From SAR116 cluster alpha proteobacterium HIMB100 (lineage in GTDB: Bacteria > Pseudomonadota > Alphaproteobacteria > Puniceispirillales > Puniceispirillaceae), in NCBI GenBank assembly GCA_000238815.2, contig AFXB01000010.1:562501-626500 (forward strand): 64,000 bases of DNA, in the 5' to 3' direction. Under the pieces are notes generated by a model, which worked only from the letters and a program-made list of their open reading frames with translations, was not told where the DNA came from and did no database searches. This document shows, one piece after another, positions 18,600 through 23,580 of the stretch (position 1 is the stretch's first letter; the number at the start of each line of letters is the position of its first letter). Both the position numbers and the translations under genes were made by a program.

Positions 18600-19556
18600 T
18601 CAGGATAAAGACGCTTCACCCATCACGATATATTTATCCCGCCGGTCTGCTTGCAGTGCTTCCGGGCTGAGACCGTCAAGAGACGAAAGCTGTTGGTTCA
18701 CTTCTGCAGACAGGCTGTCCAGGGCTTGGTCAATTTGCCGGTGCGCCCCGCCAACAGGTTCGTCAACAATCGCGTCAATCACGCCAAGCTGCTTCATATC
18801 CTGAGCGGTCAGACGCAGGGCTTCAGCAGCGGTTTGTGCTTTTTCCGCACTGCGCCAAAGAATTGATGCGCATCCTTCAGGTGAAATAACAGAATAGACC
18901 GCATGTTCATACATCACCACACGGTTACCGGTCGCCAGTGCAATCGCACCGCCTGATCCGCCCTCTCCCACTATCGCAGAGATAAAAGGAGTCTTCACCC
19001 CCAGGCAGGCTTGGATGGAACGGGCAATCGCCTCTGCCTGGCCACGTTCTTCTGCCCCGCGTCCGGGATAGGCGCCCGCAGTATCAACAAAGCTGAGCAC
19101 AGGCAGATGAAACTTATTTGCCAGCTCCATAAGCCGGATCGCTTTACGATAGCCTTCCGGCCGGACCATCCCAAAATTGCGTTTAATCCGCTGTTCAGTT
19201 GTGCTGCCTTTTTCAGTGCCCATCACCACAACCGGACGGCCATGAAACCGGGCAAGGCCGCCGATGATCGCGTAATCTTCCGCATAGTTCCGATCCCCAG
19301 ATAATGGCGTAAAATCGGTAAACAGATGTGCGATAATCTGAACCAGCTTCGGCCGTTCAGGATGGCGCGCTACCTGAACCTTTTCCCACGGCCCCAGTTT
19401 TTGATAGGTTTGCGCCAGCTCTTTATCAATGCGGGCCTGCAGCTTGCCGATCTCATCAGCGATATTCAGCCCTGAATCGCCACCCAAATGGCGCAACTCT
19501 TCTATCTTGCCTTCTAAAGCGGCGATCGGTTTTTCAAAATCAAGAAAATGACGCAT
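18600..19556 (-). CDS. accA: Acetyl-CoA carboxylase carboxyltransferase subunit alpha
   Basis: 318 residues from ATG 19556 (MRHFLDFEKPIAALEGKIEEL), matching the usual length near 319. With AccD it transfers carboxyl from carboxybiotin to acetyl-CoA, giving malonyl-CoA for fatty acid synthesis. The N-terminal coiled region (LQARIDKELAQTYQKLGPWEKV) and the crotonase-like core (MGTEKGSTTEQRIKRNFGM; SFVDTAGAYPG; GEGGSGGAIAL; YSVISPEGCASILW) are all present. A longer frame to 19586 lacks family similarity. It lies downstream of xerD on the same strand. Confidence 0.97.
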   Translation of the reverse strand: MRHFLDFEKPIAALEGKIEELRHLGGDSGLNIADEIGKLQARIDKELAQTYQKLGPWEKVQVARHPERPKLVQIIAHLFTDFTPLSGDRNYAEDYAIIGGLARFHGRPVVVMGTEKGSTTEQRIKRNFGMVRPEGYRKAIRLMELANKFHLPVLSFVDTAGAYPGRGAEERGQAEAIARSIQACLGVKTPFISAIVGEGGSGGAIALATGNRVVMYEHAVYSVISPEGCASILWRSAEKAQTAAEALRLTAQDMKQLGVIDAIVDEPVGGAHRQIDQALDSLSAEVNQQLSSLDGLSPEALQADRRDKYIVMGEASLS

Positions 19557-19616: not shown

Positions 19617-20573
19617 CTACTTGTTTTTAAAGATTCCCGCAAGCGGATGCGAATCCTTCACCAGGTGTTCCAGCCGGTCCGAACGCGTATGGGTATAGAT
19701 TTGTGTGGTGGCGATATCGGCATGTCCAAGCAGGGTCTGCAAGCTGCGTAAATCTGCCCCCCTGTTCAACATATGTGTGGCAAAGGAATGCCGCAGTACA
19801 TGCGGGCTGACGCGGTCTGCCCGCAGACCGGCATGGCAGGCCATCTGTTTCAGCAAACTGCTGAATTTTTGCCGTGTCATCTCTGATTTATTGTCGGCCA
19901 GAAGCTGATCTGAGTGGGTAAGCGGCCCATCAGCATCGCGGCGGGCTATCCATAGCTGGGTGACCTGGACAGATACTTGTGTCAGCGGCGCCAGACGTTC
20001 CCGCCCCCCCTTGCCGGTTATGATAAGGGTATGTCTGTCTTTGGCGATATCCTGAACCCGCAGATTCAGTAATTCAGAAATTCTGAGGCCTGCAGCATAA
20101 AGCAGTTCCAGGCCTGCCCGCATCCGTAAAGCATCTGATTCAGGCAGATGCTGGCTGGCCGCAATCAAGGTGCTAATCTCGTCCTCGCTGAGGCTTTTCG
20201 GCAGATTTTGGGGCAATTTCGGGCCATCCAGAAACTGCGCAGGGTTATCCTGGCGATACCCATCAGCCACCATCCAGCTCATGAAATGCCGCAACGCAGA
20301 CAGGCGGCGGGCAGTTGTGCGGGCGGTCAGCCCCTGGCTGTGCCAGCCGTGCATAATCTGTCGCAAATCATCTGTACAGGCTGTGACAACACCCGCTTTT
20401 GCAGAGGCTGAAGACAGCCGCCCCAGATCACCAGCGACAATGTTGAGGTCATTTTTATAGGCTGTAAGCGTATGAGCAGCAGCAGCCTTTTCGGCAGCAA
20501 TTGTTTGCAGAAAGCGGGCAATCAGCCTGTTATCATTTTGTTCAGCGTCACGGCGTTGCCTCTGCTCAGCCAT
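19617..20573 (-). CDS. xerD: Tyrosine recombinase XerD
   Basis: 318 residues from ATG 20573. It resolves chromosome dimers at dif with XerC. The catalytic set is complete: Arg164 (GLRISELLNL), Lys188 (TGKGGRER), His258 and Arg261 (HVLRHSFATHML), His284 (LLGHADIATTQ) and Tyr293 (IYTH). The N-terminal SAM-like DNA-binding domain (FLQTIAAEKAAAAHTLTAY) is present. A longer frame runs to 20714 inside the upstream gene but has no family similarity. It is not next to an integrase-type mobile element; its place upstream of accA and near aroK is the chromosomal xerD location. Confidence 0.93.
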   Translation of the reverse strand: MAEQRQRRDAEQNDNRLIARFLQTIAAEKAAAAHTLTAYKNDLNIVAGDLGRLSSASAKAGVVTACTDDLRQIMHGWHSQGLTARTTARRLSALRHFMSWMVADGYRQDNPAQFLDGPKLPQNLPKSLSEDEISTLIAASQHLPESDALRMRAGLELLYAAGLRISELLNLRVQDIAKDRHTLIITGKGGRERLAPLTQVSVQVTQLWIARRDADGPLTHSDQLLADNKSEMTRQKFSSLLKQMACHAGLRADRVSPHVLRHSFATHMLNRGADLRSLQTLLGHADIATTQIYTHTRSDRLEHLVKDSHPLAGIFKNK

Positions 20574-20580
20574 ACCGGCC

Positions 20581-22545
20581 TCAGCTCTCATCAAGGGCGA
20601 AATGATGCCGCAGCAGATAAGAGCGGATAAGCTCGTCTGCCAGCGTTGTTGCTGTGTCATCGAGCCCGGCCTGCTGCAGGGCAGCCAGTACACGAGCACT
20701 ATCTTGAGGGGCAACCCATCCCAGGGTTACAGGCTGCATCAAGCCGGCCGCAATCAGCGCAGTTTCACCAATGCGGCCTGCTGCTGCTGCCTGTTCAAGG
20801 GCGAGCAAAGCTGGCGCTGGCAGGCGGTAGAATGAAACAGCAGAAGCAGGCTGTGCTGGTTCTTCCTGGACAGCTAATTGAGCAACCCAATCACGAGAAG
20901 GCGGGGTCATGCCTCTGGCCTCAAATACTGGCAGCAATTCCCAGCAATCCAGACGGGCAAACAGGTCCGCGTCCCAATGAGGCGCACGCTGACCAGACAA
21001 CAGCGCCCGGACATCATCAGCTTTTCTTGAGGATGGCTGCAGGGCAGCAGGCAAGGGCTGAGAGGGCGCAGCAAGAGCCAACAGCACAGAATAATCCTCA
21101 TCCAGCTGTTCAGGCAATGATGCTGTCTCAGCAGTATCCAGTCTCTGTCTGATCAGGCTTGCATATAGCTCAAGCAACAAATCAATCCGGCCTGTAGCCG
21201 CCTCACGCTGCAGGGCCTGGCTGATCAGCATATCTGTATCATCACCCTGACGGGTCACCAGCCCCACCCACAAAAAGGCTGAATTAAGCCCGTCCTGGCG
21301 TAATGCGGAACGCCCATCAGCCTGGACGCCGTCCAGGCTGGCCAGCGCCGCCTCTGCTGCAACAGGAGCAGATAAAAGCGCCCGCCATACTTGTTCAGTC
21401 TCGCCTGAGTTCTGCAAACCTCTGTCCAGCATCTGATAGCTTGTGCTCAAAGCAGCGTCCGGGGCCAGATAGCGAAAGCTGGAGGCGGCTTGAATCATAG
21501 ACGCGGGAAGATTTTCAAAAGCCGCCATGGAAATTTGTTCATGCGCGGCATCCATCAGGATCAAGTGCAGCAATGACAGATTATCAACATCCAAGGACAG
21601 GCTGGCAGCGCGCCCCAGCAGCTTGTCAACAAGCTGGAAGAAATTCTCGTCCTGCTCACCACTGGCGCGCAAAATATCCGCGGCAAAGCTGGCGGCACCC
21701 TGCTGGCCAGCAAGCAGAGCACAGATGACCCGCGCTTTATGCCAGAACGGCTCCAGCGTCTGCTGGGCAAATCGTTCAGCATCGGTACATGCCGCCTGAT
21801 CAGCCCGGCGAACCAGATCATATTCAATCTGCCATCGTTTCCAGTCAGACCATTCTTCGTCCAATGGCAATAAGCGCACAATCTGCGATAATTTATCAGA
21901 CTGACCAGACCTGGCCAGCCAATCCAGTCGCGCTTTTACAAGCTGTTCGGCCAAAGGCCCGGCATGTTTTGGCGGAACCGCCGTTTGTACAGTGATTGCA
22001 GTGGTCAGTGCCGATAAGGCAGCTGAGCTGCCTCTGGCGGGGGTCGCTGTCACAAGAGCCAAAGCTTGTTCAGCATCTGATTCAGACCAGATAAGAGAAT
22101 TAATGACACTCTGCGCTGGCTGCGGCTGATTCAGGCCGATTGAAGCTAACCCAATTTTAGAAATTGAGCGGCGACCAACCCGGCCAGTCACATTTGACTG
22201 CCGGACTGTTGATGCCTCTGCTGCTGGCGCGGCAACAGGCACGGTTGCGGGCACAGCCAGTTGGCCCGTTGCTGGCGCACTATCCGCAGCAGTTTGATTG
22301 TCTGCAGATGCGGCATCTTCAGTCCCGGGCGGAGTCTCGTCTGTTTGTGGTGATACAGATGTGTTTTCATCAAACCTGCCCAGATCTGTCAGGCTGACAG
22401 GCGCCTGAGATGCGGCATCTGGTTCACGTCCGGTCTGCGCCTCAGCAGGGGCTGAGGTTAACCCTGTTAACAGCCAAACAAAACCCAGACAAAAAACCAA
22501 TTGGCGCCCATAACGCCAGGCTGTGTTAGTTCGTGAAACGCGCAT
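20581..22545 (-). CDS. Large secreted or periplasmic protein of unknown function
   Basis: 654 residues from ATG 22545. A basic start and hydrophobic stretch (about 14-32) end in PAEAQT, so a signal peptide cleaved near residue 36 is likely. Residues about 40-130 are low complexity (Ala, Asp, Thr, Gln, Pro). The rest is strongly Ala/Leu-rich and helical, with repeated short helix pairs that suggest an alpha-solenoid (TPR- or HEAT-like), but I see no named domain. The gene starts inside the end of a 45-codon membrane-peptide gene and ends seven bases before xerD, so it belongs to a membrane-peptide / this / xerD / accA transcript. Function unknown. Confidence 0.8.
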   Translation of the reverse strand: MRVSRTNTAWRYGRQLVFCLGFVWLLTGLTSAPAEAQTGREPDAASQAPVSLTDLGRFDENTSVSPQTDETPPGTEDAASADNQTAADSAPATGQLAVPATVPVAAPAAEASTVRQSNVTGRVGRRSISKIGLASIGLNQPQPAQSVINSLIWSESDAEQALALVTATPARGSSAALSALTTAITVQTAVPPKHAGPLAEQLVKARLDWLARSGQSDKLSQIVRLLPLDEEWSDWKRWQIEYDLVRRADQAACTDAERFAQQTLEPFWHKARVICALLAGQQGAASFAADILRASGEQDENFFQLVDKLLGRAASLSLDVDNLSLLHLILMDAAHEQISMAAFENLPASMIQAASSFRYLAPDAALSTSYQMLDRGLQNSGETEQVWRALLSAPVAAEAALASLDGVQADGRSALRQDGLNSAFLWVGLVTRQGDDTDMLISQALQREAATGRIDLLLELYASLIRQRLDTAETASLPEQLDEDYSVLLALAAPSQPLPAALQPSSRKADDVRALLSGQRAPHWDADLFARLDCWELLPVFEARGMTPPSRDWVAQLAVQEEPAQPASAVSFYRLPAPALLALEQAAAAGRIGETALIAAGLMQPVTLGWVAPQDSARVLAALQQAGLDDTATTLADELIRSYLLRHHFALDES

Positions 22546-22663
22546 TCGGGATAACCTTAGATATTGTTTTTTCCGGTGCAGGGATAGGCCAGGTAGACAA
22601 AAATGCCAACCCGCCAAAGCCAAACACCAGAATAAGAACAAGGAAAATTCTTACACCACTCAT
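22526..22663 (-). CDS. 45-residue single-pass membrane peptide of unknown function
   Basis: ATG 22663 to TAA 22526-22528. The peptide starts MSGVRIFLVLILVFGFGGLA, a single hydrophobic segment, and continues with a short tail STWPIPAPEKTISKVIPNARFTN. An AGGAAAG site lies about 12 bases upstream. It overlaps the start of the large secreted protein gene by 20 bases, which implies translational coupling. From memory, short proteins of this shape (one membrane helix then W-x-I-P-x-P..... PN-x-RF) occur beside similar genes in other alphaproteobacteria; that should be confirmed. Function unknown. Confidence 0.7.
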   Translation of the reverse strand: MSGVRIFLVLILVFGFGGLAFLSTWPIPAPEKTISKVIPNARFTN

Positions 22664-22938: not shown

Positions 22939-23580
22939 ATGTTTACATTCACGCCCGAACAACGCCGCGAATTTTCCGCAGATATTGACAGCCATTACAG
23001 TGCGAACACAAATAAGACGATTGTTCTGGTCGGGCTTATGGGGTCTGGAAAAACCGCACTTGGCAAACGGCTGGCTGTTGCGCTGGACCGGCCATTCATT
23101 GACAGCGATCAGCTGATCGAACATGAAGCAAGCTTGTCAGTGCGTGATATTTTTGAGCTCAGCGGTGAACCAAAATTCCGCGAAATCGAGCGTAACACCA
23201 TATTGAAACATGTAACCGGCGCACCGGTGATTTTATCCACAGGAGGTGGCGCATTCTGCGATCCCAGAACCAGAGCTGAAATCATCGAACATGCCATCAG
23301 CATCTGGATTGATTCAACGCCAAAGAATCTGCTGCGCCGGATTGGCAACACGGCCTCGCGTCCCCTGCTGACAACCGGAGATCCATTGGAAATTCTGACC
23401 AGGCTGCGCGAGACCCGTCTGGCAGATTACAAACAAGCAGAACTGCATGTGAGAACCGGCCGGCATACACGGCGGGTATCGATGAAAAAAATACTCAATA
23501 TTCTGGAGCAAACCGGCTATATTACCTGTCTGTCAGACAAGCAGACTGGCGACAAACCGGCAGATAAGGCCTTAAGATGA
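22939..23580 (+). CDS. aroK: Shikimate kinase
   Basis: 213 residues. It phosphorylates shikimate at the 3-hydroxyl, the fifth step of the chorismate pathway. The P-loop GLMGSGKT is at 32-39, followed by the DSD motif (DRPFIDSDQLIE), the shikimate-binding FREIE and STGGGAF, and the RPLL lid. A tail of about 25 residues beyond the usual length follows. ATG 22939 has an A/G-rich site upstream. Its stop overlaps the aroB start (ATGA), the usual aroK-aroB coupling. Confidence 0.96.
   Translation: MFTFTPEQRREFSADIDSHYSANTNKTIVLVGLMGSGKTALGKRLAVALDRPFIDSDQLIEHEASLSVRDIFELSGEPKFREIERNTILKHVTGAPVILSTGGGAFCDPRTRAEIIEHAISIWIDSTPKNLLRRIGNTASRPLLTTGDPLEILTRLRETRLADYKQAELHVRTGRHTRRVSMKKILNILEQTGYITCLSDKQTGDKPADKALR

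Follow-up and report, generated by a model that had tools for sequence, protein, structure and literature searches.

The window analyzed here, the whole stretch of 64,000 nucleotides from the SAR116 cluster alphaproteobacterium HIMB100, carries on its minus strand a gene row that consists, in this order, of a 45-residue microprotein gene, the gene for a 654-residue, apparently exported protein, xerD, and accA. We refer to the microprotein and the larger protein as SP and LP, respectively. The features of the locus are as follows.

18600..19550, minus strand: accA, next in the gene row after xerD (Pfam PF03255, E = 1.7e-136)
19617..20573, minus strand: xerD, tyrosine recombinase (Pfam PF00589 and PF02899)
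20581..22545, minus strand: gene for LP, the 654-aa apparently exported protein (open reading frame with ATG at 22545 and stop at 20581)
21721..21789, minus strand: LP residues 253-275, bounded by two invariant cysteines (38-sequence class alignment)
22526..22545, minus strand: 20 nt shared by the SP end and the LP start (read from the sequence)
22526..22663, minus strand: gene for SP, the 45-aa microprotein (ATG start, TAA stop; open reading frame read from the sequence)
22939..23580, plus strand: aroK, divergent neighbor (Pfam PF01202)

The 20 bases that SP shares with the LP start had been reported in a first-pass annotation of this DNA. Its placement of both genes upstream of xerD and accA likewise holds, with xerD starting at 20573, 7 nt past the LP stop on the same strand, and accA coming next. 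Pfam confirmed the neighbors in the window as a XerD-type recombinase, AccA, shikimate kinase, 3-dehydroquinate synthase, a CNNM protein, and a nitrilase-type protein; aroK, aroB, and the CNNM gene point in the direction opposite to the SP-LP-xerD-accA row. XerD functions in chromosome-dimer resolution and AccA in membrane-lipid supply. The ribosome-binding site that had been called good for SP is present as a Shine-Dalgarno-like AGGA, 12 nt before the ATG at a fair spacing; another Shine-Dalgarno-like sequence, AAGG, lies 9 nt 5′ of the LP ATG, within SP codons (both judged by eye). A hairpin that resembles a terminator and carries a T-rich tail is found at 22518-22502 of the minus strand, just past the SP stop and inside the LP signal-peptide region, and it may have arisen by chance; the scan returned 11 such sites where 4.7 were expected.

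Conservation of SP and of its overlap with LP

Used alone as a query, SP matched 35 of 61 genomes at E < 1e-3, its own genome included, and these represent 35 of the 37 genomes of the window's own family, f1. In families f3 and f4 of the same order, a related small open reading frame (ORF) occupies the same place at all 10 loci. Comparison of related SP genes gave 45 valid pairs, in which dN/dS over the 37-40 codons outside the overlap ranged from 0.04 to 0.38, with dS above 1 in several of the retained pairs; pairs with one locus (L091) at which the wrong ORF had been picked, and five pairs with saturated dS, were left out. We thus looked for a conserved 45-residue frame in relatives and found it: SP is a real gene whose protein is under purifying selection. 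The SP of the window has no Pfam or NCBIfam family at E ≤ 10, and a comparison of 42 SP members with the two libraries yielded scattered weak matches, each in one or two members (best E, 0.0018).

The arrangement of the genes is conserved as well. Among 60 class loci picked for SP, LP is present at 52, and at 38 of these an LP-frame ATG lies at exactly the 20-nt overlap; 55 of the 60 regions carry AroK on the strand opposite to SP. Within the window's own order, SP overlaps LP by 17-41 nt at 37 of the 45 loci with an assigned SP, and by exactly 20 nt at 19, a count in which the choice of LP start favors overlap and two of the eight non-overlapping loci are artifacts. At one locus (L086), the LP start falls in a run of N. 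A XerD-like gene follows LP at 138 of 144 assessable loci, with two more at contig ends.

We also examined LP starts by a procedure that makes no use of the SP sequence, scoring ORFs of 35-60 residues that contain a hydrophobic helix and whose end falls in the span from 60 nt upstream to 45 nt downstream of a start codon. Counted over genomes that include related, hence non-independent ones, 118 of 141 LP loci had such a small membrane ORF at the LP start; 51 of the 141 had been picked for SP. Broken down by selection, the ORF was present at 48 of the 51 SP-picked loci and at 70 of the 90 LP-picked loci (own order, 41/52; class, 29/38). The same procedure applied to control genes detected one in 0-5% of cases (accA, 2/105; aroK, 3/102; aroB, 1/131; CNNM, 0/115; nitrilase, 0/42; xerD, 7/145), the average number of candidate starts per gene being 3.7-5.0 for LP and 1.8-6.2 for the controls. 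With the first ATG only, the ORF was found at 62 of the 90 LP-picked loci vs. 2, 2, 1, 0, 0, and 5 of the controls in the order just given; the LP counts were then 48/51 for SP-picked, 40/52 for own-order, and 22/38 for class loci. The xerD count may include some of the five loci at which SP itself lies ahead of xerD. One locus of family f2 (L110) counts as a match through a 54-residue ORF unlike SP. Even at loci that the SP profile misses or almost misses, for example L231-L236, a one-helix ORF is still in place.

Distribution of the two families and their separate occurrence

Of 288 class genomes searched, 182 were matched by a profile built from 42 SP proteins (E ≤ 0.01) and 192 by one built from 38 LP proteins (E ≤ 0.001). 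Each family is therefore found in about two thirds of the sampled alphaproteobacterial genomes, in a fixed place beside housekeeping genes. Both were detected in 151 genomes, SP only in 31, LP only in 41, and neither in 65, the value of 41 being an upper bound because the SP profile misses divergent SP. Co-occurrence was significant by Fisher's test (p = 3e-14, with genomes treated without phylogeny correction). Among 299 phylum-sampled genomes, a sample whose out-of-class share is not stated, LP matched 54, all of them in the window's class. SP matched 26 of the 299; five of these lie outside the class, and these five matches are weak (E 0.0005-0.008) and fall within frames of 227-626 aa. No match was found among 72,556 plasmid records searched with three diverse LP queries.

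A strict link between LP and MreC, taken as a sign that LP goes with the MreB-type elongation system, was considered and rejected, as 41 mostly reduced genomes show none: MreC was found in 12 of the 15 without LP vs. 23 of the 26 with LP. Among 51 mostly large genomes, MreC scored above the cut-off in 28 of the 29 with LP and in 6 of the 22 without LP, the 16 large genomes that lack both coming from six families (f67 and f152-f156) that may be one clade. One genome (G098) has LP and lacks MreC.

Each gene also occurs without the other. In the sister family f2, LP is found without a recognizable SP at all eight loci with upstream sequence, and two more f2 loci lie at contig ends. SP occurs without LP at 8 of the 60 SP loci, with XerD directly after SP at five of the eight; the XerD N-terminus is supported by Pfam at all three LP-less SP loci tested. 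At two loci (L152 and L193), SP is near consensus though LP is absent. The SP-LP coupling is not obligatory, and neither strictly needs the other. Because each is found alone, SP must do more than hold LP, or else not bind LP. The first-pass annotation had described the two genes as a two-part envelope module. We confirmed that SP and LP are a real pair with a conserved overlap and with envelope signatures on both proteins; in the strict sense of an obligatory pair, a module is not supported, since the f2 loci have LP with no recognizable SP and XerD directly follows SP at five LP-less loci.

Predicted architecture of SP and LP

SP consists of one membrane helix at approximately residues 4-22 and a tail of about 22-23 residues (WPIPAP...SKVIPNARFTN), in which the family alignment reveals the pattern W-x-I-P-A-P and a V-E-K-V-I-P-like element. 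The single helix predicted from the window alone is borne out by the hydropathy of 42 chosen members, in which the best 19-residue value has a minimum of 2.09 and a median of 2.85. The flank N-terminal to the helix is net positive in 40 of the 42 members, and the first eight residues past the helix are net positive in 3 of the 42, as expected for an N-in/C-out orientation of the SP family. In the SP of the window itself, both flank charges are zero. SP thus has the features of bitopic small proteins, with fewer than 60 residues, one helix, and a positive inside, the last of these by family and not by the neutral window protein.

Judged by eye, LP begins with a signal peptide that extends to about residue 36 and a low-complexity linker that extends to about residue 125; it continues as an all-helical solenoid in AlphaFold models. 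For residues 118-654, modeled with 18 sequences, the mean pLDDT was 85.1 and the pTM 0.85, with essentially all secondary structure in helices; residues 410-654 modeled alone gave a pLDDT of 84.9 and a pTM of 0.83. Neither Pfam nor NCBIfam yielded a family for the LP of the window at E ≤ 10, and in the 38-member alignment single members gave scattered weak matches to the two libraries. The earlier description of LP as an alpha-solenoid with no named domain accordingly holds for its core. One of the 38 homologues reaches TPR_19 (E = 0.0037), and we do not assign a TPR sequence motif to LP. The LP profile has no sequence relative among PDB chains at E ≤ 1, and Foldseek returned no match at E ≤ 0.001 for either the core or the C-terminal part. 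The structural neighbors that VIA-align returned have TPR-like and other helical-repeat folds, the highest Z score being 9.0 for the core and 8.2 for the C-terminal part; the tool describes values in this range as common among helical repeats. The top neighbor is the peptide-binding Pex5 TPR domain (145 residues, 3.4 Å), whose Z of 9.0 falls in that common range and short of what the tool regards as meaningful for repeats.

Four LP residues, G137, W153, C253, and C275, do not vary among the 38 aligned class members. The two cysteines correspond to model positions 136 and 158, which lie in consecutive helices (132-145 and 149-161), symmetric about the turn. This placement fits a putative C253-C275 disulfide in an apparently exported protein.

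LP varies in length and in its N-terminal region. In family f4 (L101-L103, L105, and L107-L109), it measures about 554-564 aa, and in the four members aligned the signal peptide is not followed by the long low-complexity linker. At four f61 loci (L243-L246), LP has 439-603 aa and no small ORF ahead of it. Two LP proteins (L110 and L258) have a lipobox-like start by eye, so some lineages may have LP in the form of a lipoprotein. At L254, L260, and L261, where LP begins with a hydrophobic stretch, an SP-LP fusion was considered; on reading, these stretches look like LP signal sequences instead. Elsewhere in the same genome, a 922-aa protein that we take to be caspase-like (L115:5188-7956; G000:C10, about 719,190-721,960) has, close to its N-terminus, a stretch resembling LP residues 246-320, which span the cysteine pair (E = 1.5e-7; profile E = 2.3e-12). 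A second such protein, of 725 aa, is encoded just upstream of it.

Possible roles of the pair

Our findings lead us to propose, tentatively, that in SP and LP the Alphaproteobacteria have an old envelope pair, located in the xerD-accA row, and that the SP tail docks LP at the inner membrane as a scaffold. SP would stay in the inner membrane with its proline-containing tail of about 22 residues in the periplasm, and this tail would dock into a groove of LP, thereby holding LP at the membrane. LP, stabilized by the putative C253-C275 disulfide, would in turn act as scaffold or adaptor to an enzyme of envelope building or of division, and the overlap of the two genes may help keep both proteins in balance via coupled translation. 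The export and location of LP in this proposal are predictions from its sequence. Docking is favored because gene order and overlap are conserved, because a small membrane ORF is frequent at the LP start, including in lineages with a hardly recognizable SP sequence, and because it agrees with the co-occurrence in 151 of 288 genomes, the topology statistics of SP, the helical solenoid with its Pex5 TPR neighbor, and the invariant cysteine pair. It is weakened by the commonness of Z scores up to 9.0 among helical repeats and, most strongly, by the occurrence of LP without a recognizable SP and of SP without LP.

On a wider view that we think less likely than not, the pair could constitute an envelope machine that was born in the Alphaproteobacteria and is confined to them: an inner-membrane-tethered periplasmic solenoid, tied by its operon to dimer resolution through XerD and to lipid supply through AccA, retained by most lineages though lost from others, and without a Pfam or NCBIfam model. 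Should SP and LP form one envelope complex, the Alphaproteobacteria, among which are major ocean bacteria and laboratory models, would have an envelope component specific to their class. At its length, SP can be skipped by gene callers, and genetic studies may have overlooked the pair as a result. What is new here is two families without a library model, in the form of a small membrane protein and an apparently exported solenoid. No title on the SP-LP pair was found among the open-licence PMC titles listed, where absence is not absence in print, and the passages available from PMC1182365, PMC2241609, PMC7901474, and PMC10117765 do not describe the locus, although the 'hypothetical' signature proteins that these papers list could include LP.

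SP and LP might instead never touch, a reading that we take seriously without expecting it to hold. SP would then modulate another inner-membrane protein while LP works alone in the periplasm, the two sharing a transcript with xerD and accA. Small membrane proteins are known to modulate other inner-membrane proteins often, and AcrZ, CydX, and MgtS are single-helix examples that act on larger partners. SP resembles these three in being short and single-helix; it differs from them in having no Pfam or NCBIfam family and in that LP is a putative partner. The LP-less loci with SP directly before xerD, the near-consensus SP at L152 and L193, and the f2 loci all agree with proteins that act apart. 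Against this, co-occurrence above independence (uncorrected for phylogeny) and an overlap kept in divergent lineages suggest that SP and LP share a task.

The helical solenoid of LP, all-helical and apparently exported, also brings to mind a periplasmic adaptor for a protease or a peptidoglycan enzyme, with SP secondary, although we consider this reading unlikely. The soluble lytic transglycosylase Slt70 contains a helical part that forms a periplasmic alpha-superhelix, similar to the predicted periplasmic solenoid of LP. Slt70 appears in the Foldseek list for LP at an E of 0.8, but no lytic transglycosylase family is among the Pfam matches of LP or of its 38-member alignment. In Pseudomonas aeruginosa, according to passages of three papers, LbcA is the lipoprotein partner of the protease CtpA (PMC8764530, PMC11021448, PMC6050968). 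Like LbcA, LP is predicted to be a helical-repeat protein located in the cell envelope, and the CtpA-LbcA entry 8sxf (8sxf_C) is among its structural neighbors with a Z of 8.2, but with an rmsd of 14.9 over 153 residues. The LP of the window differs from LbcA in that, by eye, it starts with a signal peptide instead of a lipobox, and neither a protease nor a peptidoglycan hydrolase is among the Pfam-identified neighbors in the window. The LbcA and Slt70 matches are no better than those of unrelated helical repeats in the same lists, and the absence of a PDB sequence relative for LP also speaks against an adaptor of this type. TPR-like hairpins of BamD and MamA align with short stretches of the C-terminal part of LP (Z 6.9 over 71 residues and Z 6.5 over 77 residues, respectively); these alignments cover about 70-77 residues, and no sequence relation of either protein to LP was found.

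Finally, SP could be a leader ORF with an idle product, its translation serving to open the start of LP or xerD, as the 20-nt overlap with the LP ATG, the AAGG within SP codons, and a 310-aa ORF that starts at the same 20-nt overlap in the XerD place at L205 would allow, but this is very improbable in view of the low dN/dS outside the overlap, the conserved helix, positive N-flank, and tail motif of SP, and an SP sequence that is kept at loci without the overlap.
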